From NCBI GenBank assembly GCA_028641055.1, contig CM054059.1, positions 48,183,682 through 48,247,681 on the forward strand: a stretch of DNA of 64,000 nt, read 5' to 3'. Both the position numbers and the translations under genes were made by a program. The notes under the pieces are model-generated. The model was given only the letters and a program-made list of their open reading frames with translations, was not told where the DNA came from and made no database searches. The DNA is from Alopecurus myosuroides. Its lineage: Eukaryota > Streptophyta > Magnoliopsida > Poales > Poaceae. The first letter of the stretch is position 1, and each line of letters begins with the position of its first letter. Shown here piece by piece: positions 33,598 through 60,275 of this stretch.

Positions 33598-34924
33598 TTT
33601 ATTACAAGGTCATACTTGTGCAATCCCTGTTGACGATCCTGTAACCAGATACTCTCGACCACCACCTGGTGAGAAAAAATCAACACAGATCTGCAGACCC
33701 TCAATGCAGTTGAATGTGTGCACAGATTGGGAAGAGGAAATGTCCCATATCTGTGAATGTCAAACGTAAGTTCTGGTTAGATATAAATAACTGTTAGCCA
33801 CCTCCATTTCAACAGCTTGAGAAAAACTTGAAGTGAGCTCATAGTTCCGATTGCATGGGAAAAAGGAGGAATTAACCTTTGTTGTGCCATCTTTTGAAAC
33901 ACTGGCAAAGGTGTTGCTTCGTAGCGGGTTAAACATGACCTGCGACACATTGTCTGTGTGTTCCTGGAACATGCCAACAACTTCCCAGTCTCTCTCCCAG
34001 TTCCAAATTTTGATTGTGCCGGTATTCGATGCTGACAGCAAAAGTGGCTCACTTGGGTGAAGTGCCAGTGATTCGACCCAACTACCATGAGCTTTGAATA
34101 CTCTCAGCTGGTCCATTAAAGGACATGTAAGTACGTGGATGTCTCCGTTGCCGCTACCTGCCACAATCCATTGCCTTCGTGCAATGAATCTCGCAGAAAG
34201 AATCCAATGTCTATCAGCCTGCACCAGATCTAAGTCCTGTGTGTTGTTTCGCGATGTCACTTGTGCCTGCCGAGATGCATGGATACAAGTTGGTTCAGGG
34301 CATGTATGCGATAAAAAAATACTTTTAAATTCCATACGTGGATGCAGCTAGTTACCAACCTGGGTCTGGTAGTCCCAAATGCACGTATACCCATTAGAAT
34401 GACCGGTCAAAATCCTGCAAGACACAAGAGGATACTTCACCGTAATTTTAAAACTGACAACTTTTCATGAACTCTTAGCACATTGTCCCGCACCAGAAGG
34501 ACAAGTGGTCACTGTTACACTGTCACAAAAAATGGAACAGTAAACCTTTTTGTGCAGGCTATATTTTTGTATGATATTTTCTTGTTGCTCATGCTATTAC
34601 ATGATACTTTTCCATTTTCATTGATTAAGAAGAAGGTTTAGTTTGTTTACAAAAGAGGTGTGAAGACAAAATAGGATGTGCCAACACAAACGACATACTC
34701 TCGCGACATTACAATACTCGAAGCCTCGTCCTTCATCTTATTAAGAAATGTCATTGACGTAGCCGATTGGTTTTGAAAAACTCAAACATTTCACACTTTC
34801 CAAACCCCCCAACAAACGCGCATACCAAGTGATGCCACTTCCTTCCGTCGTTGGTTTACTCGAAGAATCCACCGTCATATACTTGCAAGGATTGACACAC
34901 ATGGTTCCTACCGGTGGCGCCAAA

Positions 34925-35486
34925 TGTTGGTGTTTTAAACTGAAAATATTTTTTATAGGGTAGTTTGTGGCCACGACCCGATAGATTGCACACACAAGAC
35001 ACAACTACTTTTACATGTTCGGTCCATGGAAAATACATGTAACAAATATAGTCCGGTTTGTGGTGGACGGAATATATATGTGTAAGCAAAATATGAGAGT
35101 AGATGTCGATTGAGCGCGATCATATCCCTCCTTATATAGCTGGCAACGGGTAGGATTATAGCTCCCTATGGATGCACAGATAGGCTAGTATTCATTACGA
35201 GATGTAAGCAAAATATCCTCAGTAGATTTGGTCATCGTCTTGTGCTCCAAGTCAGGACGGTGCACGTAGTACTCAATATGTTGGTATGACTCATGCAACT
35301 ATTATGGGTTGTGTAGCCCTCATGTATCACACAGTAGTCCATATACTTGTCAATGGGCACAAATTCGCTGACTTCAAAGAGTTAAGTCATGGACCGAGTT
35401 TTCCATTTTGGATGTTGTCCATTCTTCATCCAAAGGTGGTCGTCTTACTTTTTAACATAATTGTTATCTCAAGTCTTGGTTAAACA
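34925..35486 (-). mobile_element. LTR fragment with primer site, unit B
   Basis: Counterpart of the element at 23,609-24,151: TG...CA ends, a TATATAAGG core and an adjacent TTTGGCGCC primer site. It is in intron 9 of gene copy B. Confidence 0.5.
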
Positions 35487-38400
35487 TGCATTTTTTACTT
35501 TTTTATATACTACAATATATTTTATCAATGTGCTACTGACATATATACATTAAAAATGAAAAATAATTATCTTGATATCTGCAACTAAACTTTCTCAATT
35601 GTACAAGTTTCCTATGGTATACTGTTTACGTGAAGAAAGATAAAACAGGTTTAGTGTACAAGATAAAACGTGCAAATTCTTTACAAGATGAACATTCCTT
35701 AGAATATATATACTCACTCTTCACCAAACAAGTAATACAATAAGACATTAACTTACCAAGACTCCGTTGGATGCACATCCATTGCAAATGTTACCGGATA
35801 ACGATCCTTACAATATATTATCTAAAAAAAATGGTTGGAAAAACCTTAGGAACAAATAATTAATTTAAGCAAAGATGCACTTATGCAAGAGAGCTCTAAC
35901 TATCACCTTTATTCGTGGTTGGATTGGCTGCCAGGTAATAAACACGCATCAAACATAGAAAAACAAAGGAACAATGTCACATAAAACATGTATCACATAT
36001 AGTAATGAAGTTAATTAGTTTTGCTAAAAGGCTTTCATTAAATAACCTCAGATATCATCGTGGGTTCACAAATAGCCATCAGTGTTGCCTCATGCACATG
36101 GCCTCGCCTAAAAACGTAGTCTTCCACGCTCTTTATTTCGGCATCCACTAAACATGTCTCTAGGATCATGGAAAGTGATTCCATATTTGTCGGTGGTTGC
36201 TCCTGTTTCTCCATGGTTACAATGTAGGTGCATGTGGACCTTGGTGGCAGAGTGCCGTTAAGTGGCGATAGTCCATAGAAGTAACTATCTGGATTTGTTG
36301 GTACACACCTAAATGCGACATGCTGATATGTCTTGTTTGTTAGGCGTAGTGGGCATGATATCAACTTGTTTGGCTCGAAGAGGAAGTGGAGCCGGCTGGT
36401 ATGGACATCTAGCAACTCGCATACTATCTTCTTAGATGCAGTCGACGACCTTGTCCCAGAGGAAATGCTAGGAATCGTCTATGTTAAAGAAGAATCCTCC
36501 CAGTTATTAACACAAATGTTTCTATACAAAAATAACATTATGAAGAGAGACATATTGTACACAATACATACTACACTTTCATTTTATGATTTCCCACTAA
36601 TCCCTGCTTTGATTGTCAATATTATTTTCAATCATGACCATTCTATGGCGTTCTCTCGTTGAACGAGTGAGTTGTTCTTCCTACTATTGTGAATTTCAAG
36701 TATTTGTTCTTGTTCTGTTGAGAAGATGTTCCTAAATTATTATACATGAATGATGATGCATTGTTCCAACACTGTAATGTATTATTATGAACATATTTTC
36801 TCCTCCATACGTGTTCATGCATATATAAGTAGCACAAAGAGGTTAGGAAACCGAGTTATGATAAAATTATAATTTCACAATGTACGATTAATGCTTCATG
36901 TGTTCAAGCCTACTTGTCTTAGATAGAGCATCTCCTAGTGAAACATACACAAAATAATTAAGTCTATACAAATTGCATGGTGTTCTTTAGAGACCGTAGG
37001 GTCTCATCTTCCAAGTAGAATCATGACTGGTCATCCCCGCTACCATATTATGTAAGATGTGTGAAATATATTTCATACTCATTAATATGTGGTATGCAAA
37101 AATAAAAGAGAAGAACTGTAAAACCAGAAACAAATGAGGATAATGAATCGTACCTGATGAATCACCGAGACTGGTTCATTTCCTAACGAATGAGGATTAT
37201 GAATCGTAGTGTCTGTCTCATTAACATTATTAACGACAACCCCTATACTCAGTGTTTCGTACTCCAGACAGCTTAAAGCTATTTCGATACATCTTTTTAC
37301 ATGTACTAGCAACTCACAGAATATCTTCTTAGGTGCATTCAGCAAATTGCTCCGAGAGGATATGACATGGCTCGTCTATATTGAAGAAGAATCTTCCCGG
37401 TTAGTTAATACAAATGATGTTGTAAAAATGTAAAATTATGCTGAGAGACAAACTGTACACTATATATTATACTATCATTTCAAGATTTCTCGTTAATATT
37501 AACCTTTTTCCTCAACATTATTTTTGGTCATGACCATTCTATGGTGTTTTAAGTTCGAAGCAGTGGGTAATTATTCCCATTTTAAGTGGAACCAGTAGGT
37601 AATTATTCCCACTATTCTGAATGATAATGTTTCATGTAGTGTCTTTCTCGTTCTCTTGACCATATATTTCCTAACTTATTGCATCTAACTGATTGCATCT
37701 AACTGATGTTGCATTGTTTAAACCTTTTAACTTAATTTTCTGATCATATTTTCTTTCCCATAATTGCTCAAGAGTAAATAAGTTGCATACCTAAGAAATC
37801 TATCTATATATGTATGTAGACAAAAACATCTGATAGAGTGTGACTTTCACAATGTACTATTAAGCCTCACGTGTTTATACTCATTTATATTTGGTATGAA
37901 AAAAATAGAAGAGAAGAAACATAAAACCAGAAACAAATGAGGATAAGGAATCACACCCGGTGAATAGCTAACCCTGGTTCATTTCCTAACGAATGAGGAT
38001 AGTGAAACATAGCCTCTGTCTCGTTCAAATAATTGACGATAAGCCCTATACTTGGCCTTTTGTGTCGATCCCTCTCCAAACAGCTTAAAGCTATTTCGAC
38101 ACATTTTTTTACTTGATTTGACTTGATCTCATACATTGATGTTTTGTATAGCCTCTTCTCCCACTTCTTGTATACCTAGAAATTAGAACATTAGAGAGAA
38201 CAATATATTAGAAAGAACATACTATAATTTGTGATAGGTATACAAATTAGCCTCAGTAAAGGACACTTTATTTACACGTTTAGTGAATTCCTCGGAAGTC
38301 ATTTCACTGACTCGGAAGTATTCCTCGGGTCCTGTAATTATCTTTATGATTACCACACCCAGGCTGAATATGTCGAACTTATTTGAGATTATACCATTGT

Positions 38401-39303
38401 CGATGTATTCAGGTGATTGGTATCCACTGCATTCCACATTGTATATTTGTGACTGATACATTTTACCTCAAAGAAAAAACAAGAAAAATGGATGCGTACA
38501 AAATAGTGAAATTTCCTGTACATGAATAATTAAGCTCACCGTGTACCAATAGAACTATTTGTCACTTGTGTTTGTTCTCCTCCAAATAGCCTAGACAAGC
38601 CAAAATCAGCTATCTTTGGGACCATATTATAATCCAGCAATACATTTTCTGGTTTTAAATCCAAATGGTACATAGGAATTTCCAATTCCTCGTGAAGGTA
38701 TTTTAATCCCATGCATATCCCTTTAATTATGCCGTATCGTGTGGGCCAACCATGTCCACCAGATTCATCTGTAGAAAAAAAAGGAATTCTCGAAATTACA
38801 TGTGAAGAACATTGTCTTAATATGCTAATCCATACAATTAGAGCAGTAGCGTACCAACAATATATTTGTCAAGGCTTCCATTATCCATATACTCGAGACA
38901 GAGTACTCTATGTGTCGTTTCAGCAAAAATCTGTGCCCCATTGTCGTACATGGGGTTCCGGCGAGTTTCATAGCAATATCCAACAACTCGCACAATATTG
39001 TTGTGTTTTTTCTTTTCATGGTTGCTAAACTCCTTCTTAAACTGCTCCTCATTATCCTCAAGTCGTGACATAGGCTTAAGCACCTTTACAGCAACCTTTT
39101 TCCCATCATTATAGACTCCCTGTTCACCGTAACGATATATATATAGCATATGCAAAGCAGCAAATTGGGTGTATATATACCCCTTTTAATGATTATTTTT
39201 TACTCAAATGAGTGAAGTGATTAACACCTGTGAATTGATCGTGAAATTACTGAATAAATTAATCCATTTTCTGCATGTAATATATAAGTAATATTATGAG
39301 AGC

Positions 39304-39557
39304 AAGACTATGTTGTCTGTGGGTGGTTTGAACTCCTGTGTTTTTGGTTAGGTTAGAGGGGATGTCTATCGACAGGTTTTTGTCCCATAGAGGTGCTCGA
39401 GGTCGAGGACTTTCAGCGGGTTTCCTGTGCGATACCCCTGTTTTCTAGCTAGACTTGTTTCTTGTCCCTTTCTGTCTTCTAATTTCTCTGTTGTAAGAAC
39501 CTGATATTTCTGTTATGCGAGTAATAGAAAGGGGCTAGCCCAGTTGGAAAGCAAAAA
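39304..39557 (+). pseudogene. LINE 3' UTR fragment at the left edge of unit C
   Basis: It matches 19,931-20,184 closely, including the A-rich tail, but has no LINE coding sequence to its left. It joins directly to kinase intron 1 of unit B. Confidence 0.85.
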
Positions 39558-39824: not shown

Positions 39825-40306
39825 TATAGATAAAATATGAATAAAAAAACCGAAAAAAATAGACATTAACAGCAGAATTCTTCAGAGTAAGTAGCATCCA
39901 TAGTATTCCAGCAGCATTCTTCAAAATCACGGCCGTGCTATGTCAATGTTGAACTGGTGATCAACCGCTGGTTACCTTGCCAGTACAAGGAGCTTCTGGA
40001 AATCTAATCCATCATTTCCACGATCCCGATTCCATCATCAAATCCAATAATGAGGCTGCATATGTAAGATGCCAGGTTAGATGTCTGGAGTGATATTTGA
40101 CCCCAATCTGTTACATCCACAAGGTAGGAGGTTATATGCTTTAATCCCAACCGGAGCGTGTCTGCGCGAGATTGTGGAAATTGTTACACTAATTAAATAA
40201 GGTTTGTACTTTGCCGCCTGTTTTAAGTGTTAGGTGTATGACAGACCATGTAAATGAACAAAAAAGGCCAAACTGAGCATTGATTGGACCCGGAGAGCGG
40301 AAAGTA

Positions 40307-40430
40307 CTCCCTCCGTTCAACAGTAGATGACTTCCACATATCTATATATGGATGTATCTAGACATATTTTAGTGTCTAGATACATCCATATATAGATATG
40401 TGGAAGTCATCTATTGTTGAACGGAGGGAA
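40307..40430. mobile_element. Stowaway-type MITE (unit C, intron 14)
   Basis: Same near-palindromic element as at 20,930-21,053, with TA at both sides. Confidence 0.85.
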
Positions 40431-40797
40431 TACCTTGCTAGCTCGATCTCTAAAAGAAACAAATAGTACACCCATAGCTCCAATACAAAGTAGGATGCAT
40501 AATTTTTTACCTTCTTGTCTCCTTCACGTATGCATAACCACCACGAGCCAGGCCGAGCTTAAAGTCAATCATGTTCTCACACCTGCAAAATAAGCCTTAG
40601 TTTATTCTTGAACTTTGTATCCTTTAGCAAATATGAAGTCCAGCACGAAGCAACAACTCCGTGAGTCCACAAATATAAGGAGCATATGCTTTTCGAGATA
40701 TTTCTTCGCCCAAATATTTATTTAATAATACGCGGTTAATAAAATTAAGAACAATATTGTTGGATTCATATTGTAAAGCCCTCTCAAATGGTACCAG

Positions 40798-42579
40798 TAC
40801 CAGTTACATGGGATCAAATCCGAAGAAGGAGTCCAGGGCTCCTCTCGCGAAACCTAACTCCTCTCGCGTCGCCGCCCTCGGCGGCTCGGGGGGCCGCCGC
40901 CGCCCCGCCCTAGGCCACCCTCCGATGCTCCCACCCCTCGTCGTCGCATGAGGAGTCGCCGGGATCTCCCCGGGTGGAGCCCGTGATGGTGGAGGCGAGG
41001 TGCTCTCCGCAGGACCGGGGGCGTGCGCGGCGCCGCGGGTGGCCGGATTGGTTGCCGCCGGGTGGATCTTGGGAGCAGCATCAGGGTGTCGTGGAGGAGA
41101 AGATCGGCGCTGCCGTCCTCGGGCGCGGCCGTGCCAACACCGAACAGAGGTGACGGGCACCCCCTCCAGCCATCCCGCCTTTCCACGTCGCGCCGGAGGT
41201 CAAGGAGGTTGGGCTCGGTGCCGATCTGGTCAGGAGACGGCCACTCCATGTGCGCGTCGGGCTTCTCCTGCGACTCGGCGTACCAGGCCTACATCGTGCG
41301 CGGCAGCGGCCGCGTGCAGGTCGTCGGCATCGACGGTACCCGCGTGTGCATGGCGCCGCGGGTGGCCAGGACTTCGGGGGCGGCATCGTGCCGTGTAGGA
41401 GGAGATCGGCGCTGCGGGCGGCCAGGAGCGGCATCGCGTGGGCTGCCTCCGACAGGGCCGGCGTGCTTCCTATGGCGGTGGTCAGCCCGGTCTTCCCGGT
41501 GCGATCTGTGGCGGCGTGGTGGCGGTGAGGGGCTGAGGTTGCCGACGGCGTTCCTCCGTGGGATGTTGTCGATGCCTTAGCACCGATGCTTGTGGTTGGA
41601 CGATCCAAATGGTGGTTGATCCGGCGCCTTCGACGTTGATGAAGCGTGATGGATTCCGGGTGAAAACCTAGTCTCCGATTTCTCGGAGCCGGTGATGGCG
41701 ACAATTGGAGTGTCGCTCCCTTCCTGAAGGCATCATCGAGGAAGCCCCGCGGCTCTTCACGTCAACTCCGGGGGAAATCCTTGATCCGTCGATCGGATGA
41801 TGGTGGCGCTTCTACGTCGTTACCTCCTTGGGGGCATCATTCTTGGAGGAGAGCGCCGATCGAAGGGACCAGAGGATGAGTAAGATGGTGGATGCAGGTT
41901 CTTCGAGGGTCTACGCGGCATCGGCAACGTCGACTAGCTACCTTGCTTCGACCCGCTCCGGGGGAAACCCTAAATCTGGGATTCCCGGATTGGATGATGG
42001 TGACACCGCTGGTGTTGCTCTCCCTCTTGGGGGCATCATTTTGGAGTAGACGCCGGAGGTCCTAGAGAGGATGCGGTGTTTCTTCTACTGCATTCACAAC
42101 GGCGGTTCTCGACAGCTTGGTGCTGTGGGGTCTCGGTGTTATTTGCGTGATGTTGGACGCGCGCAGGGAGTTGGAGTCGTCTGGTGCCATGGTGGTATCG
42201 ACGGCAGGTCTGACATGGTGGGTACTTTGATCGCTGTCCTGAAGACGGGTGAGCGGAAGACGGCGGCAGCTACTCTACGAGCGTGTATATCGGTACATGC
42301 TGCGGTGTGATGGACCGATTATGCCCCTTGCTCGCTATCGGGCGGCATGGAGAGGCCTTCGGTTTTTGGATGACGCGCGTTGGTGGGTTCTCAGAGTATC
42401 GGCTCTGGGATTGTCCACCCCCTTCATCAGTTTTGGTAGGCTTAGTTTGGTGGATTCACGTCTAGTTGTTTGATGTATCTGCTTGTAAGACAGTGCGATT
42501 TCTGTTCTATCTTTTAATAAAAACCGGCCGTGTGCATCATTTTGATGCAGAGGCTGGGGACAGACCTCCATTTCTAAAA
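40798..42579 (+). mobile_element. Non-LTR-type retroposon, 1.78 kb (unit C)
   Basis: The element is flanked by 12-bp direct repeats AAATGGTACCAG (40,786-40,797 and 42,580-42,591); the single-copy empty site is intact in unit A at 21,409-21,420. It is GC-rich, has no reverse transcriptase, and ends with a hairpin GCATCATTTTGATGC (42,534-42,548), a CCTCCATTTCT block and an A-tail. This is the kind of tail used by LINE-driven retroposition. Several overlapping long frames on both strands are due to composition. It lies in intron 13 of gene copy C. Confidence 0.8.
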
Positions 42580-42672
42580 AAATGGTACCAGTTTATTATA
42601 AAATAATCCTCGTATTTTGGACTAATAATTAGTTAATGTTGATTCTCAAAAATCACCTAGGCTTTATATTAA

Positions 42673-42945
42673 GATTGCTCACAATGAGGGTAACATAGCT
42701 GGTAACATAAGTGCCTCCTAGGCAAAAAAGATGACGTGGCACTCATTTAATGAGGAGAGAGCTGCTAGTGGTATCATAGGTAGATACCATAACATAACGC
42801 ATTCCAAAACAAGATGTGTCTATAGCCTAATAAATATACAAGTATATAATACTACAAATATGTTACTACCCATTGTAGAATTAGTAACATAGACTAGTAT
42901 CATATGCATGATACCAGTGTATGATACTCCCCATTGTGACTAGTC
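42673..42945. mobile_element. Tourist-like MITE, unit C
   Basis: Same element as at 32,293-32,565. Confidence 0.5.
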
Positions 42946-43469
42946 TTATGGAGGGACGTTGTCCAGACGAAAGATTGATCCCAGGCAGCATGCATTGTCC
43001 TTAATAAATTAAATGGACACAATACTATTGTTTATTTCGATACTGCGGAGCATATAAAGGTAATCCTACCAAAACTATCTATCGCTAGATCTTTCAGTTT
43101 AATCCTTAATTATTCTGATAAGTAGTGGCACTATGAGCTGGTCGTCGGGCAGATGTGTTTACGTCCTCAATATTTTCTGTCTAAGCTCAAAAGCTTTACC
43201 TGTAGTTAGTGCTCCCGCGAATAGACACAACCAAGTCTTCTGAAGCTGTAATCAAACTCGGATGGTCCGGGTTGCAATTGACCACGCCAATAATGCAGCC
43301 GCCCCATGGGTTTTTCTGGAGCCAACTGAGTTGCCGAATACATCTCTTTGTGTTCAGATCCCAGATCTAATAAAGAAAATGGTGGAGTAGCATGCAGTTA
43401 TACTTACAGAAATATAATTTACAACATGAAACAATATTTGAACCGCAATGTGCATACGTATTATTATTA

Positions 43470-43976
43470 ACTAGAGGAATACCCCGCGCGTTGCAGCGGG
43501 TATCCTTTTATGAACTCTATTGTGAGAATGCAAACGACTAAGACGCATGAAATCTGAATTTGTCTACATGAACATGCATGATTGTATGATATGCTATGCA
43601 TGTTGCAACGTTTTCTTTTGGAAATTGCTTAAAAACTTACATATAGAATAACACTTAATAGTTACATGTGTTCTGATCGTTGAAAAAATTGGTAGAACAT
43701 TTTCTTAGTTGGTTGAATCGACCAAGCGTTAATATAATTAACGATGAGATAGATTGCATGGGGAGTTAGTCAAACAATGATATGGACAATTAGATGGATA
43801 CAATAATGGATGCTAGTACATATTAATGGGATAGGGTGGAAAATTGGTTGGTTGGAAGGATGGATGAGGTGGACAATTGATTGGTGGAAAGGATAGATGA
43901 TGTGGATAGCTTGCATGTTGAGCTAGAAAAATCATAAATGCAAGTTAGTGGGGTTTTGCTTTATAAGAAGTATAGA
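43470..43976 (-). mobile_element. Helitron, 507 bp (unit C)
   Basis: Same TC...CTAGT element as in unit B, one base shorter in an A-run (about 43,636). It lies in intron 12 of the fusion gene. Confidence 0.8.
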
Positions 43977-45303
43977 TTTATTACAAGGTCATACTTGTGC
44001 AATCCCTGTTGACGATCCTGTAACCAGATACTCTCGACCACCACCTGGTGAGAAAAAATCAACACAGATCTGCAGACCCTCAATGCAGTTGAATGTGTGC
44101 ACAGATTGGGAAGAGGAAATGTCCCATATCTGTGAATGTCAAACGTAAGTTCTGGTTAGATATAAATAACTGTTAGCCACCTCCATTTCAACAGCTTGAG
44201 AAAAACTTGAAGTGAGCTCATAGTTCCGATTGCATGGGAAAAAGGAGGAATTAACCTTTGCTGTGCCATCTTTTGAAACACTGGCAAAGGTGTTGCTTCG
44301 TAGCGGGTTAAACATGACCTGCGACACATTGTCTGTGTGTTCCTGGAACATGCCAACAACTTCCCAGTCTCTCTCCCAGTTCCAAATTTTGATTGTGCCG
44401 GTATTCGATGCTGACAGCAAAAGTGGCTCACTTGGGTGAAGTGCCAGTGATTCGACCCAACTACCATGAGCTTTGAATACTCTCAGCTGGTCCATTAAAG
44501 GACATGTAAGTACGTGGATGTCTCCGTTGCCGCTACCTGCCACAATCCATTGCCTTCGTGCAATGAATCTCGCAGAAAGAATCCAATGTCTATCAGCCTG
44601 CACCAGATCTAAGTCCTGTGTGTTGTTTCGCGATGTCACTTGTGCCTGCCGAGATGCATGGATACAAGTTGGTTCAGGGCATGTATGCGATAAAAAAATA
44701 CTTTTAAATTCCATACGTGGATGCAGCTAGTTACCAACCTGGGTCTGGTAGTCCCAAATGCACGTATACCCATTAGAATGACCGGTCAAAATCCTGCAAG
44801 ACACAAGAGGATACTTCACCGTAATTTTAAAACTGACAACTTTTCATGAACTCTTAGCACATTGTCCCGCACCAGAAGGACAAGTGGTCACTGTTACACT
44901 GTCACAAAAAATGGAACAGTAAACCTTTTTGTGCAGGCTATATTTTTGTATGATATTTTCTTGTTGCTCATGCTATTACATGATACTTTTCCATTTTCAT
45001 TGATTAAGAAGAAGGTTTAGTTTGTTTACAAAAGAGGTGTGAAGACAAAATAGGATGTGCCAACACAAACGACATACTCTCGCGACATTACAATACTCGA
45101 AGCCTCGTCCTTCATCTTATTAAGAAATGTCATTGACGTAGCCGATTGGTTTTGAAAAACTCAAACATTTCACACTTTCCAAACCCCCCAACAAACGCGC
45201 ATACCAAGTGATGCCACTTCCTTCCGTCGTTGGTTTACTCGAAGAATCCACCGTCATATACTTGCAAGGATTGACACACATGGTTCCTACCGGTGGCGCC
45301 AAA

Positions 45304-45865
45304 TGTTGGTGTTTTAAACTGAAAATATTTTTTATAGGGTAGTTTGTGGCCACGACCCGATAGATTGCACACACAAGACACAACTACTTTTACATGTTCG
45401 GTCCATGGAAAATACATGTAACAAATATAGTCCGGTTTGTGGTGGACGGAATATATATGTGTAAGCAAAATATGAGAGTAGATGTCGATTGAGCGCGATC
45501 ATATCCCTCCTTATATAGCTGGCAACGGGTAGGATTATAGCTCCCTATGGATGCACAGATAGGCTAGTATTCATTACGAGATGTAAGCAAAATATCCTCA
45601 GTAGATTTGGTCATCGTCTTGTGCTCCAAGTCAGGACGGTGCACGTAGTACTCAATATGTTGGTATGACTCATGCAACTATTATGGGTTGTGTAGCCCTC
45701 ATGTATCACACAGTAGTCCATATACTTGTCAATGGGCACAAATTCGCTGACTTCAAAGAGTTAAGTCATGGACCGAGTTTTCCATTTTGGATGTTGTCCA
45801 TTCTTCATCCAAAGGTGGTCGTCTTACTTTTTAACATAATTGTTATCTCAAGTCTTGGTTAAACA
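45304..45865 (-). mobile_element. LTR fragment with primer site, unit C
   Basis: Same element as at 34,925-35,486, in intron 9. Confidence 0.5.
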
Positions 45866-48800
45866 TGCATTTTTTACTTTTTTATATACTACAATATATT
45901 TTATCAATGTGCTACTGACATATATACATTAAAAATGAAAAATAATTATCTTGATATCTGCAACTAAACTTTCTCAATTGTACAAGTTTCCTATGGTATA
46001 CTGTTTACGTGAAGAAAGATAAAACAGGTTTAGTGTACAAGATAAAACGTGCAAATTCTTTACAAGATGAACATTCCTTAGAATATATATACTCACTCTT
46101 CACCAAACAAGTAATACAATAAGACATTAACTTACCAAGACTCCGTTGGATGCACATCCATTGCAAATGTTACCGGATAACGATCCTTACAATATATTAT
46201 CTAAAAAAAATGGTTGGAAAAACCTTAGGAACAAATAATTAATTTAAGCAAAGATGCACTTATGCAAGAGAGCTCTAACTATCACCTTTATTCGTGGTTG
46301 GATTGGCTGCCAGGTAATAAACACGCATCAAACATAGAAAAACAAAGGAACAATGTCACATAAAACATGTATCACATATAGTAATGAAGTTAATTAGTTT
46401 TGCTAAAAGGCTTTCATTAAATAACCTCAGATATCATCGTGGGTTCACAAATAGCCATCAGTGTTGCCTCATGCACATGGCCTCGCCTAAAAACGTAGTC
46501 TTCCACGCTCTTTATTTCGGCATCCACTAAACATGTCTCTAGGATCATGGAAAGTGATTCCATATTTGTCGGTGGTTGCTCCTGTTTCTCCATGGTTACA
46601 ATGTAGGTGCATGTGGACCTTGGTGGCAGAGTGCCGTTAAGTGGCGATAGTCCATAGAAGTAACTATCTGGATTTCTTGGTACACACCTAAATGCGACAT
46701 GCTGATATGTCTTGTTTGTTAGGCGTAGTGGGCATGATATCAACTTGTTTGGCTCGAAGAGGAAGTGGAGCCGGCTGGTATGGACATCTAGCAACTCGCA
46801 TACTATCTTCTTAGATGCAGTCGACGACCTTGTCCCAGAGGAAATGCTAGGAATCGTCTATGTTAAAGAAGAATCCTCCCAGTTATTAACACAAATGTTT
46901 CTATACAAAAATAACATTATGAAGAGAGACATATTGTACACAATACATACTACACTTTCATTTTATGATTTCCCACTAATCCCTGCTTTGATTGTCAATA
47001 TTATTTTCAATCATGACCATTCTATGGCGTTCTCTCGTTGAACGAGTGAGTTGTTCTTCCTACTATTGTGAATTTCAAGTATTTGTTCTTGTTCTGTTGA
47101 GAAGATGTTCCTAAATTATTATACATGAATGATGATGCATTGTTCCAACACTGTAATGTATTATTATGAACATATTTTCTCCTCCATACGTGTTCATGCA
47201 TATATAAGTAGCACAAAGAGGTTAGGAAACCGAGTTATGATAAAATTATAATTTCACAATGTACGATTAATGCTTCATGTGTTCAAGCCTACTTGTCTTA
47301 GATAGAGCATCTCCTAGTGAAACATACACAAAATAATTAAGTCTATACAAATTGCATGGTGTTCTTTAGAGACCGTAGGGTCTCATCTTCCAAGTAGAAT
47401 CATGACTGGTCATCCCCGCTACCATATTATGTAAGATGTGTGAAATATATTTCATACTCATTAATATGTGGTATGCAAAAATAAAAGAGAAGAACTGTAA
47501 AACCAGAAACAAATGAGGATAATGAATCGTACCTGATGAATCACCGAGACTGGTTCATTTCCTAACGAATGAGGATTATGAATCGTAGTGTCTGTCTCAT
47601 TAACATTATTAACGACAACCCCTATACTCAGTGTTTCGTACTCCAGACAGCTTAAAGCTATTTCGATACATCTTTTTACATGTACTAGCAACTCACAGAA
47701 TATCTTCTTAGGTGCATTCAGCAAATTGCTCCGAGAGGATATGACATGGCTCGTCTATATTGAAGAAGAATCTTCCCGGTTAGTTAATACAAATGATGTT
47801 GTAAAAATGTAAAATTATGCTGAGAGACAAACTGTACACTATATATTATACTATCATTTCAAGATTTCTCGTTAATATTAACCTTTTTCCTCAACATTAT
47901 TTTTGGTCATGACCATTCTATGGTGTTTTAAGTTCGAAGCAGTGGGTAATTATTCCCATTTTAAGTGGAACCAGTAGGTAATTATTCCCACTATTCTGAA
48001 TGATAATGTTTCATGTAGTGTCTTTCTCGTTCTCTTGACCATATATTTCCTAACTTATTGCATCTAACTGATTGCATCTAACTGATGTTGCATTGTTTAA
48101 ACCTTTTAACTTAATTTTCTGATCATATTTTCTTTCCCATAATTGCTCAAGAGTAAATAAGTTGCATACCTAAGAAATCTATCTATATATGTATGTAGAC
48201 AAAAACATCTGATAGAGTGTGACTTTCACAATGTACTATTAAGCCTCACGTGTTTATACTCATTTATATTTGGTATGAAAAAAATAGAAGAGAAGAAACA
48301 TAAAACCAGAAACAAATGAGGATAAGGAATCACACCCGGTGAATAGCTAACCCTGGTTCATTTCCTAACGAATGAGGATAGTGAAACATAGCCTCTGTCT
48401 CGTTCAAATAATTGACGATAAGCCCTATACTTGGCCTTTTGTGTCGATCCCTCTCCAAACAGCTTAAAGCTATTTCGACACATTTTTTTACTTGATTTGA
48501 CTTGATCTCATACATTGATGTTTTGTATAGCCTCTTCTCCCACTTCTTGTATACCTAGAAATTAGAACATTAGAGAGAACAATATATTAGAAAGAACATA
48601 CTATAATTTGTGATAGGTATACAAATTAGCCTCAGTAAAGGACACTTTATTTACACGTTTAGTGAATTCCTCGGAAGTCATTTCACTGACTCGGAAGTAT
48701 TCCTCGGGTCCTGTAATTATCTTTATGATTACCACACCCAGGCTGAATATGTCGAACTTATTTGAGATTATACCATTGTCGATGTATTCAGGTGATTGGT

Positions 48801-49682
48801 ATCCACTGCATTCCACATTGTATATTTGTGACTGATACATTTTACCTCAAAGAAAAAACAAGAAAAATGGATGCGTACAAAATAGTGAAATTTCCTGTAC
48901 ATGAATAATTAAGCTCACCGTGTACCAATAGAACTATTTGTCACTTGTGTTTGTTCTCCTCCAAATAGCCTAGACAAGCCAAAATCAGCTATCTTTGGGA
49001 CCATATTATAATCCAGCAATACATTTTCTGGTTTTAAATCCAAATGGTACATAGGAATTTCCAATTCCTCGTGAAGGTATTTTAATCCCATGCATATCCC
49101 TTTAATTATGCCGTATCGTGTGGGCCAACCATGTCCACCAGATTCATCTGTAGAAAAAAAAGGAATTCTCGAAATTACATGTGAAGAACATTGTCTTAAT
49201 ATGCTAATCCATACAATTAGAGCAGTAGCGTACCAACAATATATTTGTCAAGGCTTCCATTATCCATATACTCGAGACAGAGTACTCTATGTGTCGTTTC
49301 AGCAAAAATCTGTGCCCCATTGTCGTACATGGGGTTCCGGCGAGTTTCATAGCAATATCCAACAACTCGCACAATATTGTTGTGTTTTTTCTTTTCATGG
49401 TTGCTAAACTCCTTCTTAAACTGCTCCTCATTATCCTCAAGTCGTGACATAGGCTTAAGCACCTTTACAGCAACCTTTTTCCCATCATTATAGACTCCCT
49501 GTTCACCGTAACGATATATATATAGCATATGCAAAGCAGCAAATTGGGTGTATATATACCCCTTTTAATGATTATTTTTTACTCAAATGAGTGAAGTGAT
49601 TAACACCTGTGAATTGATCGTGAAATTACTGAATAAATTAATCCATTTTCTGCATGTAATATATAAGTAATATTATGAGAGC

Positions 49683-49936
49683 AAGACTATGTTGTCTGTG
49701 GGTGGTTTGAACTCCTGTGTTTTTGGTTAGGTTAGAGGGGATGTCTATCGACAGGTTTTTGTCCCATAGAGGTGCTCGAGGTCGAGGACTTTCAGCGGGT
49801 TTCCTGTGCGATACCCCTGTTTTCTAGCTAGACTTGTTTCTTGTCCCTTTCTGTCTTCTAATTTCTCTGTTGTAAGAACCTGATATTTCTGTTATGCGAG
49901 TAATAGAAAGGGGCTAGCCCAGTTGGAAAGCAAAAA
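49683..49936 (+). pseudogene. LINE 3' UTR fragment at the left edge of unit D
   Basis: Identical in nature to the fragment at 39,304-39,557. It marks the second copy of the duplication junction. Confidence 0.85.
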
Positions 49937-50172
49937 TTGTATATGATTAACGTAGGATGTTTCTCCTTTCTGTCAGATTTTTTTTTACAAATCTATCTTT
50001 TTCATATGAGCTAGTTGTTTAATCTAAAAATACTATTCCACGATCAGAATTATAAAATATTGGTTAATGTGGTACGTCAACGGTGTGTATTTTCCAATAA
50101 AGGGGACAAATAGGAGCAATTTTTTTGTGATAGATAGAAAAATATATATATTTTTTACATACTAAGATGACG

Positions 50173-50203
50173 CCCTCGCAATTGCGAGGGTCACCTTACT
50201 AGT
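50173..50203 (+). mobile_element. Helitron-like 3' terminus (unit D)
   Basis: Same 18-bp palindrome and CTAGT end as at 20,424-20,454. Confidence 0.5.
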
Positions 50204-50382
50204 TATAGATAAAATATGAATAAAAAAACCGAAAAAAATAGACATTAACAGCAGAATTCTTCAGAGTAAGTAGCATCCATAGTATTCCAGCAGCATTCTT
50301 CAAAATCACGGCCGTGCTATGTCAATGTTGAACTGGTGATCAACCGCTGGTTACCTTGCCAGTACAAGGAGCTTCTGGAAAT

Positions 50383-53300
50383 CTAATCCATCATTTCCAC
50401 GATCCCGATTCCATCATCAAATCCAATAATGAGGCTGCATATGTAAGATGCCAGGTTAGATGTCTGGAGTGATATTTGACCCCAATCTGTTACATCCACA
50501 AGGTAGGAGGTTATATGCTTTAATCCCAACCGGAGCGTGTCTGCGCGAGATTGTGGAAATTGTTACACTAATTAAATAAGGTTTGTACTTTGCCGCCTGT
50601 TTTAAGTGTTAGGTGTATGACAGACCATGTAAATGAACAAAAAAGGCCAAACTGAGCATTGATTGGACCCGGAGAGCGGAAAGTACTCCCTCCGTTCAAC
50701 AGTAGATGACTTCCACATATCTATATATGGATGTATCTAGACATATTTTAGTGTCTAGATACATCCATATATAGATATGTGGAAGTCATCTATTGTTGAA
50801 CGGAGGGAATACCTTGCTAGCTCGATCTCTAAAAGAAACAAATATTACACCCATAGCTCCAATACAAAGTAGGATGCATAATTTTTTACCTTCTTGTCTC
50901 CTTCACGTATGCATAACCACCACGAGCCAGGCCGAGCTTAAAGTCAATCATGTTCTCACACCTGCAAAATAAGCCTTAGTTTATTCTTGAACTTTGTATC
51001 CTTTAGCAAATATGAAGTCCAGCACGAAGCAACAACTCCGTGAGTCCACAAATATAAGGAGCATATGCTTTTCGAGATATTTCTTCGCCCAAATATTTAT
51101 TTAATAATACGCGGTTAATAAAATTAAGAACAATATTGTTGGATTCATATTGTAAAGCCCTCTCAAATGGTACCAGTACCAGTTACATGGGATCAAATCC
51201 GAAGAAGGAGTCCAGGGCTCCTCTCGCGAAACCTAACTCCTCTCGCGTCGCCGCCCTCGGCGGCTCGGGGGGCCGCCGCCGCCCCGCCCTAGGCCACCCT
51301 CCGATGCTCCCACCCCTCGTCGTCGCCTGAGGAGTCGCCGGGATCTCCCCGGGTGGAGCCCGTGATGGTGGAGGCGAGGTGCTCTCCGCAGGACCGGGGG
51401 CGTGCGCGGCGCCGCGGGTGGCCGGATTGGTTGCCGCCGGGTGGATCTTGGGAGCAGCATCAGGGTGTCGTGGAGGAGAAGATCGGCGCTGCCGTCCTCG
51501 GGCGCGGCCGTGCCAACACCGAACAGAGGTGACGGGCACCCCCTCCAGCCATCCCGCCTTTCCACGTCGCGCCGGAGGTCAAGGAGGTTGGGCTCGGTGC
51601 CGATCTGGTCAGGAGACGGCCACTCCATGTGCGCGTCGGGCTTCTCCTGCGACTCGGCGTACCAGGCCTACATCGTGCGCGGCAGCGGCCGCGTGCAGGT
51701 CGTCGGCATCGACGGTACCCGCGTGTGCATGGCGCCGCGGGTGGCCAGGACTTCGGGGGCGGCATCGTGCCGTGTAGGAGGAGATCGGCGCTGCGGGCGG
51801 CCAGGAGCGGCATCGCGTGGGCTGCCTCCGACAGAGCCGGCGTGCTTCCTATGGCGGTGGTCAGCCCGGTCTTCCCGGTGCGATCTGTGGCGGCGTGGTG
51901 GCGGTGAGGGGCTGAGGTTGCCGACGGCGTTCCTCCGTGGGATGTTGTCGATGCCTTAGCACCGATGCTTGTGGTTGGACGATCCAAATGGTGGTTGATC
52001 CGGCGCCTTCGACGTTGATGAAGCGTGATGGATTCCGGGTGAAAACCTAGTCTCCGATTTCTCGGAGCCGGTGATGGCGACAATTGGAGTGTCGCTCCCT
52101 TCCTGAAGGCATCATCGAGGAAGCCCCGCGGCTCTTCACGTCAACTCCGGGGGAAATCCTTGATCCGTCGATCGGATGATGGTGGCGCTTCTACGTCGTT
52201 ACCTTCTTGGGGGCATCATTCTTGGAGGAGAGCGCCGATCGAAGGGACCAGAGGATGAGTAAGATGGTGGATGCAGGTTCTTCGAGGGTCTACGCGGCAT
52301 CGGCAACGTCGACTAGCTACCTTGCTTCGACCCGCTCCGGGGGAAACCCTAAATCTGGGATTCCCGGATTGGATGATGGTGACACCGCTGGTGTTGCTCT
52401 CCCTCTTGGGGGCATCATTTTGGAGTAGACGCCGGAGGTCCTAGAGAGGATGCGGTGTTTCTTCTACTGCATTCACAACGGCGGTTCATGACAGCTTGGT
52501 GCTGTGGGGTCTCGGTGTTATTTGCGTGATGTTGGACGCGCGCAGGGAGTTGGAGTCGTCTGGTGCCATGGTGGTATCGACGGCAGGTCTGACATGGTGG
52601 GTACTTTGATCGCTGTCCTGAAGACGGGTGAGCGGAAGACGGCGGCAGCTACTCTACGAGCGTGTATATCGGTACACGCTGCGGTGTGCTGGACCGATTA
52701 TGCCCCTTGCTCGCTATCGGGCGGCATGGAGAGGCCTTCGGTTTTTGGATGACGCGCGTTGGTGGGTTCTCAGAGTATCGGCTCTGGGATTGTCCACCCC
52801 CTTCATCAGTTTTGGTAGGCTTAGTTTGGTGGATTCACGTCTAGTTGTTTGATGTATCTGCTTGTAAGACAGTGCGATTTCTGTTCTATCTTTTAATAAA
52901 AACCGGCCGTGTGCATCATTTTGATGCAGAGGCTGGGGACAGACCTCCATTTCTAAAAAAAATGGTACCAGTTTATTATAAAATAATCCTCGTATTTTGG
53001 ACTAATAATTAGTTAATGTTGATTCTCAAAAATCACCTAGGCTTTATATTAAGATTGCTCACAATGAGGGTAACATAGCTGGTAACATAAGTGCCTCCTA
53101 GGCAAAAAAGATGACGTGGCACTCATTTAATGAGGAGAGAGCTGCTAGTGGTATCATAGGTAGATACCATAACATAACGCATTCCAAAACAAGATGTGTC
53201 TATAGCCTAATAAATATACAAGTATATAATACTACAAATATGTTACTACCCATTGTAGAATTAGTAACATAGACTAGTATCATATGCATGATACCAGTGT

Positions 53301-56300
53301 ATGATACTCCCCATTGTGACTAGTCTTATGGAGGGACGTTGTCCAGAAGAAAGATTGATCCCAGGCAGCATGCATTGTCCTTAATAAATTAAATGGACAC
53401 AATACTATTGTTTATTTCGATACTGCGGAACATATAAAGGTAATCCTACCAAAACTATCTATCGCTAGATCTTTCAGTTTAATCCTTAATTATTCTGATA
53501 AGTAGTGGCACTATGAGCTGGTCGTCGGGCAGATGTGTTTACGTCCTCAATATTTTCTGTCTAAGCTCAAAAGCTTTACCTGTAGTTAGTGCTCCCGCGA
53601 ATAGACACAACCAAGTCTTCTGAAGCTGTAATCAAACTCGGATGGTCCGGGTTGCAATTGACCACGCCAATAATGCAGCCGCCCCATGGGTTTTTCTGGA
53701 GCCAACTGAGTTGCCGAATACATCTCTTTGTGTTCAGATCCCAGATCTAATAAAGAAAATGGTGGAGTAGCATGCAGTTATACTTACAGAAATATAATTT
53801 ACAACATGAAACAATATTTGAACCGCAATGTGCATACGTATTATTATTAACTAGAGGAATACCCCGCGCGTTGCAGCGGGTATCCTTTTATGAACTCTAT
53901 TGTGAGAATGCAAACGACTAAGACGCATGAAATCTGAATTTGTCTACATGAACATGCATGATTGTATGATATGCTATGCATGTTGCAACGTTTTCTTTTG
54001 GAAATTGCTTAAAAACTTACATATAGAATAACACTTAATAGTTACATGTGTTCTGATCGTTGAAAAAATTGGTAGAACATTTTCTTAGTTGGTTGAATCG
54101 ACCAAGCGTTAATATAATTAACGATGAGATAGATTGCATGGGGAGTTAGTCAAACAATGATATGGACAATTAGATGGATACAATAATGGATGCTAGTACA
54201 TATTAATGGGATAGGGTGGAAAATTGGTTGGTTGGAAGGATGGATGAGGTGGACAATTGATTGGTGGAAAGGATAGATGATGTGGATAGCTTGCATGTTG
54301 AGCTAGAAAAATCATAAATGCAAGTTAGTGGGGTTTTGCTTTATAAGAAGTATAGATTTATTACAAGGTCATACTTGTGCAATCCCTGTTGACGATCCTG
54401 TAACCAGATACTCTCGACCACCACCTGGTGAGAAAAAATCAACACAGATCTGCAGACCCTCAATGCAGTTGAATGTGTGCACAGATTGGGAAGAGGAAAT
54501 GTCCCATATCTGTGAATGTCAAACGTAAGTTCTGGTTAGATATAAATAACTGTTAGCCACCTCCATTTCAACAGCTTGAGAAAAACTTGAAGTGAGCTCA
54601 TAGTTCCGATTGCATGGGAAAAAGGAGGAATTAACCTTTGCTGTGCCATCTTTTGAAACACTGGCAAAGGTGTTGCTTCGTAGCGGGTTAAACATGACCT
54701 GCGACACATTGTCTGTGTGTTCCTGGAACATGCCAACAACTTCCCAGTCTCTCTCCCAGTTCCAAATTTTGATTGTGCCGGTATTCGATGCTGACAGCAA
54801 AAGTGGCTCACTTGGGTGAAGTGCCAGTGATTCGACCCAACTACCATGAGCTTTGAATACTCTCAGCTGGTCCATTAAAGGACATGTAAGTACGTGGATG
54901 TCTCCGTTGCCGCTACCTGCCACAATCCATTGCCTTCGTGCAATGAATCTCGCAGAAAGAATCCAATGTCTATCAGCCTGCACCAGATCTAAGTCCTGTG
55001 TGTTGTTTCGCGATGTCACTTGTGCCTGCCGAGATGCATGGATACAAGTTGGTTCAGGGCATGTATGCGATAAAAAAATACTTTTAAATTCCATACGTGG
55101 ATGCAGCTAGTTACCAACCTGGGTCTGGTAGTCCCAAATGCACGTATACCCATTAGAATGACCGGTCAAAATCCTGCAAGACACAAGAGGATACTTCACC
55201 GTAATTTTAAAACTGACAACTTTTCATGAACTCTTAGCACATTGTCCCGCACCAGAAGGACAAGTGGTCACTGTTACACTGTCACAAAAAATGGAACAGT
55301 AAACCTTTTTGTGCAGGCTATATTTTTGTATGATATTTTCTTGTTGCTCATGCTATTACATGATACTTTTCCATTTTCATTGATTAAGAAGAAGGTTTAG
55401 TTTGTTTACAAAAGAGGTGTGAAGACAAAATAGGATGTGCCAACACAAACGACATACTCTCGCGACATTACAATACTCGAAGCCTCGTCCTTCATCTTAT
55501 TAAGAAATGTCATTGACGTAGCCGATTGGTTTTGAAAAACTCAAACATTTCACACTTTCCAAACCCCCCAACAAACGCGCATAACAAGTGATGCCACTTC
55601 CTTCCGTCGTTGGTTTACTCGAATAATCCACCGTCATATACTTGCAAGGATTGACACACATGGTTCCTACCGGTGGCGCCAAATGTTGGTGTTTTAAACT
55701 GAAAATATTTTTTATAGGGTAGTTTGTGGCCACGACCCGATAGATTGCACACACAAGACACAACTACTTTTACATGTTCGGTCCATGGAAAATACATGTA
55801 ACAAATATAGTCCGGTTTGTGGTGGACGGAATATATATGTGTAAGCAAAATATGAGAGTAGATGTCGATTGAGCGCGATCATATCCCTCCTTATATAGCT
55901 GGCAACGGGTAGGATTATAGCTCCCTATGGATGCACAGATAGGCTAGTATTCATTACGAGATGTAAGCAAAATATCCTCAGTAGATTTGGTCATCGTCTT
56001 GTGCTCCAAGTCAGGACGGTGCACATAGTACTCAATATGTTGGTATGACTCATGCAACTATTATGGGTTGTGTAGCCCTCATGTATCACACAGTAGTCCA
56101 TATACTTGTCAATGGGCACAAATTCGCTGACTTCAAAGAGTTAAGTCATGGACCGAGTTTTCCATTTTGGATGTTGTCCATTCTTCATCCAAAGGTGGTC
56201 GTCTTACTTTTTAACATAATTGTTATCTCAAGTCTTGGTTAAACATGCATTTTTTACTTTTTTATATACTACAATATATTTTATCAATGTGCTACTGACA

Positions 56301-59300
56301 TATATACATTAAAAATGAAAAATAATTATCTTGATATCTGCAACTAAACTTTCTCAATTGTACAAGTTTCCTATGGTATACTGTTTACGTGAAGAAAGAT
56401 AAAACAGGTTTAGTGTACAAGATAAAACGTGCAAATTCTTTACAAGATGAACATTCCTTAGAATATATATACTCACTCTTCACCAAACAAGTAATACAAT
56501 AAGACATTAACTTACCAAGACTCCGTTGGATGCACATCCATTGCAAATGTTACCGGATAACGATCCTTACAATATATTATCTAAAAAAAATGGTTGGAAA
56601 AACCTTAGGAACAAATAATTAATTTAAGCAAAGATGCACTTATGCAAGAGAGCTCTAACTATCACCTTTATTCGTGGTTGGATTGGCTGCCAGGTAATAA
56701 ACACGCATCAAACATAGAAAAACAAAGGAACAATGTCACATAAAACATGTATCACATATAGTAATGAAGTTAATTAGTTTTGCTAAAAGGCTTTCATTAA
56801 ATAACCTCAGATATCATCGTGGGTTCACAAATAGCCATCAGTGTTGCCTCATGCACATGGCCTCGCCTAAAAACGTAGTCTTCCACGCTCTTTATTTCGG
56901 CATCCACTAAACATGTCTCTAGGATCATGGAAAGTGATTCCATATTTGTCGGTGGTTGCTCCTGTTTCTCCATGGTTACAATGTAGGTGCATGTGGACCT
57001 TGGTGGCAGAGTGCCGTTAAGTGGCGATAGTCCATAGAAGTAACTATCTGGATTTCTTGGTACACACCTAAATGCGACATGCTGATATGTCTTGTTTGTT
57101 AGGCGTAGTGGGCATGATATCAACTTGTTTGGCTCGAAGAGGAAGTGGAGCCGGCTGGTATGGACATCTAGCAACTCGCATACTATCTTCTTAGATGCAG
57201 TCGACGACCTTGTCCCAGAGGAAATGCTAGGAATCGTCTATGTTAAAGAAGAATCCTCCCAGTTATTAACACAAATGTTTCTATACAAAAATAACATTAT
57301 GAAGAGAGACATATTGTACACAATACATACTACACTTTCATTTTATGATTTCCCACTAATCCCTGCTTTGATTGTCAATATTATTTTCAATCATGACCAT
57401 TCTATGGCGTTCTCTCGTTGAACGAGTGAGTTGTTCTTCCTACTATTGTGAATTTCAAGTATTTGTTCTTGTTCTGTTGAGAAGATGTTCCTAAATTATT
57501 ATACATGAATGATGATGCATTGTTCCAACACTGTAATGTATTATTATGAACATATTTTCTCCTCCATACGTGTTCATGCATATATAAGTAGCACAAAGAG
57601 GTTAGGAAACCGAGTTATGATAAAATTATAATTTCACAATGTACGATTAATGCTTCATGTGTTCAAGCCTACTTGTCTTAGATAGAGCATCTCCTAGTGA
57701 AACATACACAAAATAATTAAGTCTATACAAATTGCATGGTGTTCTTTAGAGACCGTAGGGTCTCATCTTCCAAGTAGAATCATGACTGGTCATCCCCGCT
57801 ACCATATTATGTAAGATGTGTGAAATATATTTCATACTCATTAATATGTGGTATGCAAAAATAAAAGAGAAGAACTGTAAAACCAGAAACAAATGAGGAT
57901 AATGAATCGTACCTGATGAATCACCGAGACTGGTTCATTTCCTAACGAATGAGGATTATGAATCGTAGTGTCTGTCTCATTAACATTATTAACGACAACC
58001 CCTATACTCAGTGTTTCGTACTCCAGACAGCTTAAAGCTATTTCGATACATCTTTTTACATGTACTAGCAACTCACAGAATATCTTCTTAGGTGCATTCA
58101 GCAAATTGCTCCGAGAGGATATGACATGGCTCGTCTATATTGAAGAAGAATCTTCCCGGTTAGTTAATACAAATGATGTTGTAAAAATGTAAAATTATGC
58201 TGAGAGACAAACTGTACACTATATATTATACTATCATTTCAAGATTTCTCGTTAATATTAACCTTTTTCCTCAACATTATTTTTGGTCATGACCATTCTA
58301 TGGTGTTTTAAGTTCGAAGCAGTGGGTAATTATTCCCATTTTAAGTGGAACCAGTAGGTAATTATTCCCACTATTCTGAATGATAATGTTTCATGTAGTG
58401 TCTTTCTCGTTCTCTTGACCATATATTTCCTAACTTATTGCATCTAACTGATTGCATCTAACTGATGTTGCATTGTTTAAACCTTTTAACTTAATTTTCT
58501 GATCATATTTTCTTTCCCATAATTGCTCAAGAGTAAATAAGTTGCATACCTAAGAAATCTATCTATATATGTATGTAGACAAAAACATCTGATAGAGTGT
58601 GACTTTCACAATGTACTATTAAGCCTCACGTGTTTATACTCATTTATATTTGGTATGAAAAAAATAGAAGAGAAGAAACATAAAACCAGAAACAAATGAG
58701 GATAAGGAATCACACCCGGTGAATAGCTAACCCTGGTTCATTTCCTAACGAATGAGGATAGTGAAACATAGCCTCTGTCTCGTTCAAATAATTGACGATA
58801 AGCCCTATACTTGGCCTTTTGTGTCGATCCCTCTCCAAACAGCTTAAAGCTATTTCGACACATTTTTTACTTGATTTGACTTGATCTCATACATTGATGT
58901 TTTGTATAGCCTCTTCTCCCACTTCTTGTATACCTAGAAATTAGAACATTAGAGAGAACAATATATTAGAAAGAACATACTATAATTTGTGATAGGTATA
59001 CAAATTAGCCTCAGTAAAGGACACTTTATTTACACGTTTAGTGAATTCCTCGGAAGTCATTTCACTGACTCGGAAGTATTCCTCGGGTCCTGTAATTATC
59101 TTTATGATTACCACACCCAGGCTGAATATGTCGAACTTATTTGAGATTATACCATTGTCGATGTATTCAGGTGATTGGTATCCACTGCATTCCACATTGT
59201 ATATTTGTGACTGATACATTTTACCTCAAAGAAAAAACAAGAAAAATGGATGCGTACAAAATAGTGAAATTTCCTGTACATGAATAATTAAGCTCACCGT

Positions 59301-60275
59301 GTACCAATAGAACTATTTGTCACTTGTGTTTGTTCTCCTCCAAATAGCCTAGACAAGCCAAAATCAGCTATCTTTGGGACCATATTATAATCCAGCAATA
59401 CATTTTCTGGTTTTAAATCCAAATGGTACATAGGAATTTCCAATTCCTCGTGAAGGTATTTTAATCCCATGCATATCCCTTTAATTATGCCGTATCGTGT
59501 GGGCCAACCATGTCCACCAGATTCATCTGTAGAAAAAAAAGGAATTCTCGAAATTACATGTGAAGAACAGTGTCTTAATATGCTAATCCATACAATTAGA
59601 GCAGTAGCGTACCAACAATATATTTGTCAAGGCTTCCATTATCCATATACTCGAGACAGAGTACTCTATGTGTCGTTTCAGCAAAAATCTGTGCCCCATT
59701 GTCGTACATGGGGTTCCGGCGAGTTTCATAGCAATATCCAACAACTCGCACAATATTGTTGTGTTTTTTCTTTTCATGGTTGCTAAACTCCTTCTTAAAC
59801 TGCTCCTCATTATCCTCAAGTCGTGACATAGGCTTAAGCACCTTTACAGCAACCTTTTTCCCATCATTATAGACTCCCTGTTCACCGTAACGATATATAT
59901 ATAGCATATGCAATGCAGCAAATTGGGTGTATATATACCCCTTTTAATGATTATTTTTTACTCAAATGAGTGAAGTGATTAACAATTGTGAATTGATCGT
60001 GAAATTACTGAATAAATTAATCCATTTTCTGCATGTAATATATAAGTAATATTATGAGAGCAAGAATAATGATTTTTTCGCCTAATAAGCATATGACGTG
60101 CGGTGTACGTGAACTCACAAATATGGCACATATTCTAGCTCTGGTTGGACAACCGTACCTTGAAAACGTCTCCAGAGGAACCACTACCAAGTTTCCGTTC
60201 TTGAGAGAAACCATCTGTAATTTCTTCCAATATGTGGAACGGCACAGCCGTTGGCTCCTCAGATGCATGGTCCAT
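50383..60275 (-). CDS. Kinase-MSP-WD40 fusion protein, copy D (one-base frameshift as sequenced)
   Basis: Fifteen exons with GT-AG sites: 60159-60275, 59613-59877, 59298-59526, 59034-59184, 58716-58933, 57913-58134, 56806-57237, 56666-56686, 56516-56565, 55119-55173, 54636-55025, 54375-54509, 53580-53746, 50890-50961 and 50383-50434. Phases agree throughout, giving 858 codons if one A lost from a run in exon 5 (six Ts at 58,863-58,868; seven in A, B and C) is discounted. Residues 1-300 are a kinase: GSGSSG loop, VAVK (K51), HLDLKPEN (non-RD) and DFG. Residues 328-401 repeat the kinase tail, 402-545 hold an MSP domain (LHFLFEPNK, CPLRLTN), and 553-858 are WD40 repeats like coatomer beta-prime (SARFIARRQW, FKAHGSWVESLALHPSEP, NTFASVSKDGT). 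There is no signal peptide or membrane span. A TAA lies just before the start codon. Kinase-MSP proteins such as Snn3-D1 are known in Aegilops. A role in pathogen response is inference. Confidence 0.8.
50686..50809. mobile_element. Stowaway-type MITE (unit D, intron 14)
   Basis: Same near-palindromic element as at 20,930-21,053, with TA at both sides. Confidence 0.85.
51177..52959 (+). mobile_element. Non-LTR-type retroposon, 1.78 kb (unit D)
   Basis: Same insertion as at 40,798-42,579, with AAATGGTACCAG at 51,165-51,176 and 52,960-52,971. The A-tail is one base longer than in C and two longer than in B. Confidence 0.8.
53053..53325. mobile_element. Tourist-like MITE, unit D
   Basis: Same element as at 32,293-32,565. 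Confidence 0.5.
53850..54356 (-). mobile_element. Helitron, 507 bp (unit D)
   Basis: Same TC...CTAGT element as in units B and C, in intron 12 of copy D. Confidence 0.8.
55684..56245 (-). mobile_element. LTR fragment with primer site, unit D
   Basis: Same element as at 34,925-35,486, in intron 9. Its TATATAAGG core (near 55,890) faces the WD40 half of the gene on the same strand, so it could in principle act as an internal promoter. Confidence 0.5.

Follow-up and report, generated by a model that had tools for sequence, protein, structure and literature searches.

Proteins in which a kinase is fused to other domains are a known kind, and papers on wheat and its relatives describe several that are close to the gene considered here. 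In the 2023 count given in the Sr43 paper, kinase fusions account for 15 of the 82 resistance genes cloned in Triticeae, which makes them the second largest class, with START, C2, MSP, NLR, vWA and DUF domains listed as fusion partners. Wheat Snn3-D1 consists of a kinase followed by an MSP domain (Zhang 2021), Lr9 (WTK6-vWA) of two kinases and a vWA domain, and Sr43 carries two DUFs. For Sr43 and Lr9 an integrated-decoy model has been proposed, with the extra domains capturing a pathogen protein and the kinase signalling that capture. In switchgrass, MSP and WD domains are also found fused to NLRs. Here we describe a gene that runs on the minus strand between an ATG at 60275 and a TAG at 50383 in a 64,000-nucleotide stretch of the Alopecurus myosuroides genome (contig CM054059.1; the whole stretch is called the window below), which an earlier sequence-only reading had taken for a fusion of a non-RD kinase, an MSP domain and a WD40 domain resembling coatomer beta-prime. 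The gene is one more, probably damaged, member of a grass family of kinase-MSP-WD40 proteins, and is the last of four tandem copies (A to D). We slightly favour the view that in this family the MSP domain and propeller serve as a bait, decoy or scaffold outside trafficking, and that the array is in birth-and-death decay.

The gene shares with Snn3-D1 the order of kinase and MSP domain, and with Lr9 and Sr43 the fusion of a kinase to extra non-kinase domains; WTK6-vWA is 52% identical to it over 35% of the query, in the kinase. Unlike Snn3-D1 as described, it has a complete WD40 propeller after the MSP domain and an exon that is a hybrid of kinase C-lobe and MSP sequence, and it differs from the two kinases and vWA domain of Lr9, and from the two DUFs of Sr43, in its set of domains. 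No mention of WD40 was met in the main texts of the Lr9, Sr43 and Yr15 tandem kinase papers. The sequence-only reading had not known the layout as described. This holds for the open-access literature searched (main texts, with few subscription journals and preprints), in which no description of it was found, but not for the sequence databases, where the layout is already frequent (see below).

Fifteen exons were placed in the gene, copy D, and all 14 introns have GT-AG ends, so that its start, end, strand and exon number agree with those proposed before:
60159 to 60275, minus strand: exon e1, ATG and glycine-rich loop of the kinase; lacking in copies B and C
59613 to 59877, minus strand: exon e2, kinase N-lobe with the VAVK lysine
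59298 to 59526, minus strand: exon e3, catalytic loop HLDLKPEN (non-RD) and DFG
59034 to 59184, minus strand: exon e4, first part of the kinase C-lobe
58716 to 58933, minus strand: exon e5, last part of the kinase C-lobe; frame broken, then TAG
57913 to 58134, minus strand: exon hyb, starting as the MSP exon and ending as e5; open, phase 0 at both ends
56806 to 57237, minus strand: exon msp, MSP domain
56666 to 56686, minus strand: exon w1, linker of 7 residues
56516 to 56580, minus strand: exon w2, propeller start
55119 to 55173, minus strand: exon w3, propeller
54636 to 55025, minus strand: exon w4, propeller
54375 to 54509, minus strand: exon w5, propeller
53580 to 53746, minus strand: exon w6, propeller
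50890 to 50961, minus strand: exon w7, propeller
50383 to 50434, minus strand: exon w8, propeller end and stop codon TAG

The exons add up to 2591 nt, which is not a multiple of 3. Exon phases match everywhere except at e5, which has 218 nt in copy D vs 219 nt in copies B and C; an A-run in it is one base shorter than in copies A, B and C, so that the frame breaks and a TAG is met inside the exon. This change may be a true lesion or a homopolymer sequencing error. The claim that the phases agree to the stop codon therefore fails, and the 858 codons given before were not recovered: masking the break by X yields a reading of 862 aa plus stop, and without e5 it is open with 790 aa.

Pfam searches with the copy D reading, a check that the sequence-only reading had proposed, recovered the kinase (PF00069, E 2e-48), MSP (PF00635, 27.6 bits, above the cut-off of 25.9) and WD40 (PF00400, E 2e-22) domains, in this order. 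The kinase has the motifs VAVK, HLDLKPEN and DFG; no arginine precedes the catalytic-loop aspartate, in agreement with its earlier assignment as non-RD, and by its sequence the kinase looks equipped for catalysis. A tandem kinase was considered and rejected, as there is one complete kinase plus a C-lobe fragment in the hybrid exon. The likeness of the propeller to coatomer beta-prime was likewise upheld, beta'-COP being its best PDB relative (E 1e-52). A fold search with the whole protein returned rows almost only for the propeller, and the MSP exon was folded on its own; it has the MSP fold, and the N-terminal seven-blade propeller was recognised by sequence in the window gene and by fold in its homologue P0007.

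The search for relatives used the full reading as query; 7980 candidates were scored, and the best 120 of the 2906 matches are those listed here. Their domain orders were typed with profiles built for the analysis (K, kinase; M, MSP; W, WD40). Kinase, MSP and WD40 stood in line in 63 of these 120, which come from several grass subfamilies. The orders found were K-K-M-W (35), K-M-W (22), K-W (19), K-K (15), K-K-K (9), K-K-M (5), K-K-K-M-W, K-M-W-M-W and K-M-K (3 each), K-W-K-W and K-K-W (2 each), and K-K-K-M and K-M-K-K (1 each). The sources of the three-domain proteins include Aegilops, Triticum, Hordeum, Avena, Festuca, Lolium, Brachypodium, Leersia, Panicum, Urochloa, Miscanthus, Eleusine and Aristida, genera that we take to represent Pooideae, Oryzoideae and several PACMAD subfamilies. 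Aegilops tauschii P0001 (51% identity over 59% of the window reading), which is the nearest relative of each of the three domains, and Avena sativa P0007 (44% over 100%) share the domain order with the window gene; no hybrid exon was seen in proteins of this type, and no described function was found for them. The closest listed kinase is the 282-aa fragment P0236 (75% over 78%). Among the relatives scanned, 10 of 209 catalytic loops read HRD, with the motif search failing in 32 of the 209. In 55 proteins retained by length filters, with two-MSP proteins left out and shared species history still included, the domain distances were correlated at 0.83 (MSP and WD40), 0.47 (kinase and MSP) and 0.33 (kinase and WD40), values reached in none of 999 permutations.

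Self-comparison of the window revealed the four tandem copies which, like the hybrid sixth exon, are additional to what had been reported. The block of copy A spans about 20 to 28.6 kb, and B, C and D then follow at a period of about 10.38 kb. Besides the exons of copy D, the array comprises:
20627 to 28157, minus strand: copy A, all 15 exons; frame changes in e2 (+1 nt) and e5 (-5 nt vs B and C)
32820 to 39305, minus strand: copy B, open from e2 to w6; no e1; w7 and w8 not assembled
40004 to 49684, minus strand: copy C, e2 to w8 all open; no e1
51178 to 52972, strand not assigned: insertion of about 1.8 kb in the w6-w7 intron of copy D, with a 13-bp target duplication and an A-rich end; not in copy A
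53851 to 54355, strand not assigned: insertion of about 0.5 kb in the w5-w6 intron of copy D; not in copy A

Copies B and C start inside intron 1 and for that reason lack exon 1 and the start codon, and copy B lacks w7 and w8 because its sequence does not start until 30798, behind a 13-N gap. Substitutions number 6 in 8496 aligned bases between B and C and 15 in 8500 between C and D. Copies A and D differ at 48 of 2586 exon sites and 144 of 4954 intron sites (p 0.006); exon divergence is thus below intron divergence, despite a ratio of nonsynonymous to synonymous substitution rates (dN/dS) of 1.07 (37.3 nonsynonymous and 9.7 synonymous). The array looks like the product of birth-and-death turnover, with an older copy A a recent multiplication in which B and C are without the first exon, and a copy D with all exons but a broken e5. 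As assembled, copy D would give no full-length protein unless e5 is skipped or its missing base is a sequencing error.

The last four exons show no difference between copies A and D (0/426), vs 65/2090 in the neighbouring introns and 3' flank. Purifying selection on these exons was considered and set aside, since the w5-w6 intron is identical too (0/122) and a conversion tract may explain the identity. Across w5, the following intron (insertion left out) and w6, 53580-54509 and 22014-22437 are identical (0/424) against a background of about 3%, perhaps as the result of gene conversion. As a separate observation on the interval 49498-60159, exon 1 of copy D ends in phase 0 and exon 2 of copy C begins in phase 0, so that in principle the former could splice to the open body of the latter.

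That the array is a dead set of pseudogenes with no present function is possible though doubtful, and is the alternative that survives best. All four copies have a lesion in the kinase part as assembled, and the dN/dS ratio between A and D points the same way. However, the one-base changes in D e5 and A e2 both lie in A-runs, D would otherwise be open, and every copy has open msp and w exons with undamaged splice sites wherever these are assembled. A-runs are common places of sequencing error.

In all four copies the hybrid exon is 222 nt long, is open, and both starts and ends in phase 0, so that it can be kept or skipped with the frame intact. It probably arose through an intragenic duplication of 0.8–0.9 kb, to judge from its two halves. 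Among the scanned single-kinase MSP proteins there is one, barley P0079, in which a C-lobe motif occurs a second time ahead of the MSP domain. The hybrid exon at 57913-58134 and its equivalents in copies A to C may be cassette exons.

A second alternative is that two neighbouring genes have been joined, a kinase or kinase-MSP gene that stops behind the MSP exon and a separate WD40 or MSP-WD40 gene. It has some points in its favour: i) reading through the msp donor gives VI and then a stop, two codons on, an end like that of Snn3; ii) Oryza and Urochloa have annotated kinase-MSP proteins with a length of about 450 aa; iii) MSP-WD40 models with no kinase are found in Triticum urartu (P0121) and Avena (P0122), and also as P0128; and iv) in T. 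urartu the kinase (P0286) and P0121 are separate models, each listed with an 8,828-nt contig, which reflects either an annotation split or two genes. We nevertheless regard it as improbable, because all three domains stand in one protein in the 63 matches counted above, and some of these are on contigs too short for such introns, namely P0015 (789 aa on 3,120 nt) and P0002 (1367 aa on 4,814 nt), both with the three domains in order and presumably transcript assemblies. Moreover, w1 to w8 keep to the phase of msp wherever a copy has them assembled, and the first in-frame methionine of the msp exon comes only at residue 89 of 144. The proposed three-part fusion is thus supported by the exon phases outside e5, by the many homologues that are single polypeptides and by the contigs of transcript size.

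The sequence-only reading had also suggested that the protein couples a kinase to an endoplasmic reticulum contact module and a vesicle-coat propeller. The dilysine site of beta'-COP consists of R15, K17, R59, R101, D98, D117, D206 and E248 (PMC3521961). In the window propeller 7 of these 8 residues are replaced and E248 alone is kept, and K17 (or R) and R59 are kept together in none of 69 family propellers (the window and 68 of 86 WD40-bearing proteins, 18 having been dropped by a filter of 230–340 residues). Coatomer beta' (COPB2, Sec27) has a similar N-terminal propeller; however, its second propeller and solenoid are absent from the window gene, which stops at w8 directly after the first propeller. 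In VAP proteins, the FFAT-binding residues of which we take to be K94 and M96, the MSP fold is shared, whereas the window gene has no tail anchor but a WD40 domain after the MSP domain, and the six most hydrophobic 19-residue windows of the copy D reading all lie before the latter. The K94 equivalent is serine in the window gene and is not a basic residue in any of the 20 MSP rows aligned, the alignment to VAP-A being remote (E 0.87). The two added domains thus keep their folds, mostly without the residues for their usual partners. A working adaptor of kinase, endoplasmic reticulum contact (MSP) and COPI (propeller) is accordingly very improbable, since the retained folds that speak for it are outweighed by the replaced dilysine residues, the non-basic FFAT position, remotely aligned as it is, and the missing tail anchor, second propeller and solenoid.

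In the reading that we favour, the family would consist of proteins with at least one kinase, mostly of the non-RD type, fused to an MSP domain and to a propeller that stems from coatomer beta'. The kinase would signal, and the MSP-propeller part would form an interaction surface outside trafficking, either a bait or decoy for pathogen proteins or a scaffold for host proteins, which would fit equally well; its engagement would alter the output of the kinase, along the lines suggested for Sr43 and Lr9. Several observations weigh against this reading. The dN/dS ratio of 1.07 between copies A and D leaves recent constraint at the protein level invisible, and the separate T. urartu models may be two genes. 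Since 19 of the 120 best matches are kinase-WD40 proteins with no detected MSP domain, the latter is not always present, and for the MSP-WD40 part the closest relative listed reaches only 57% identity. Some of the 69 propellers still have certain pocket residues (D117 in 24, E248 in 16 and R59 in 7), and as a decoy could well retain the ancestral pocket, pocket loss is no proof of a decoy. A narrower version, in which a cargo-blind beta'-COP and MSP domain on an immune kinase would catch pathogen proteins aimed at COPI or VAP and signal their presence, is unlikely. If it were true, beta'-COP would be a pathogen target in grasses. A branch of grass proteins with an MSP domain and a coatomer-derived propeller minus its cargo site would make COPI and VAP possible pathogen targets, and the array offers an example of the gain and loss of kinase fusion genes in a family open to testing.

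Between copies A and B, a 355-bp unit is repeated 4.7 times at 29128-30797 (99% alike) and runs into the 13-N gap at 30785-30797, which is probably a scaffold join; further gene copies may be hidden there. Outside the gene copies the window has 149 open reading frames (ORFs) of at least 75 aa, ten of which were run against Pfam. An ORF on the minus strand at 4504-4842 has DUF659, a domain that we take to be as in hAT-type transposons. At 14827-18663 lies a further tandem array, in which a unit of about 673 bp is present in about 5.7 copies that are 79–96% alike.
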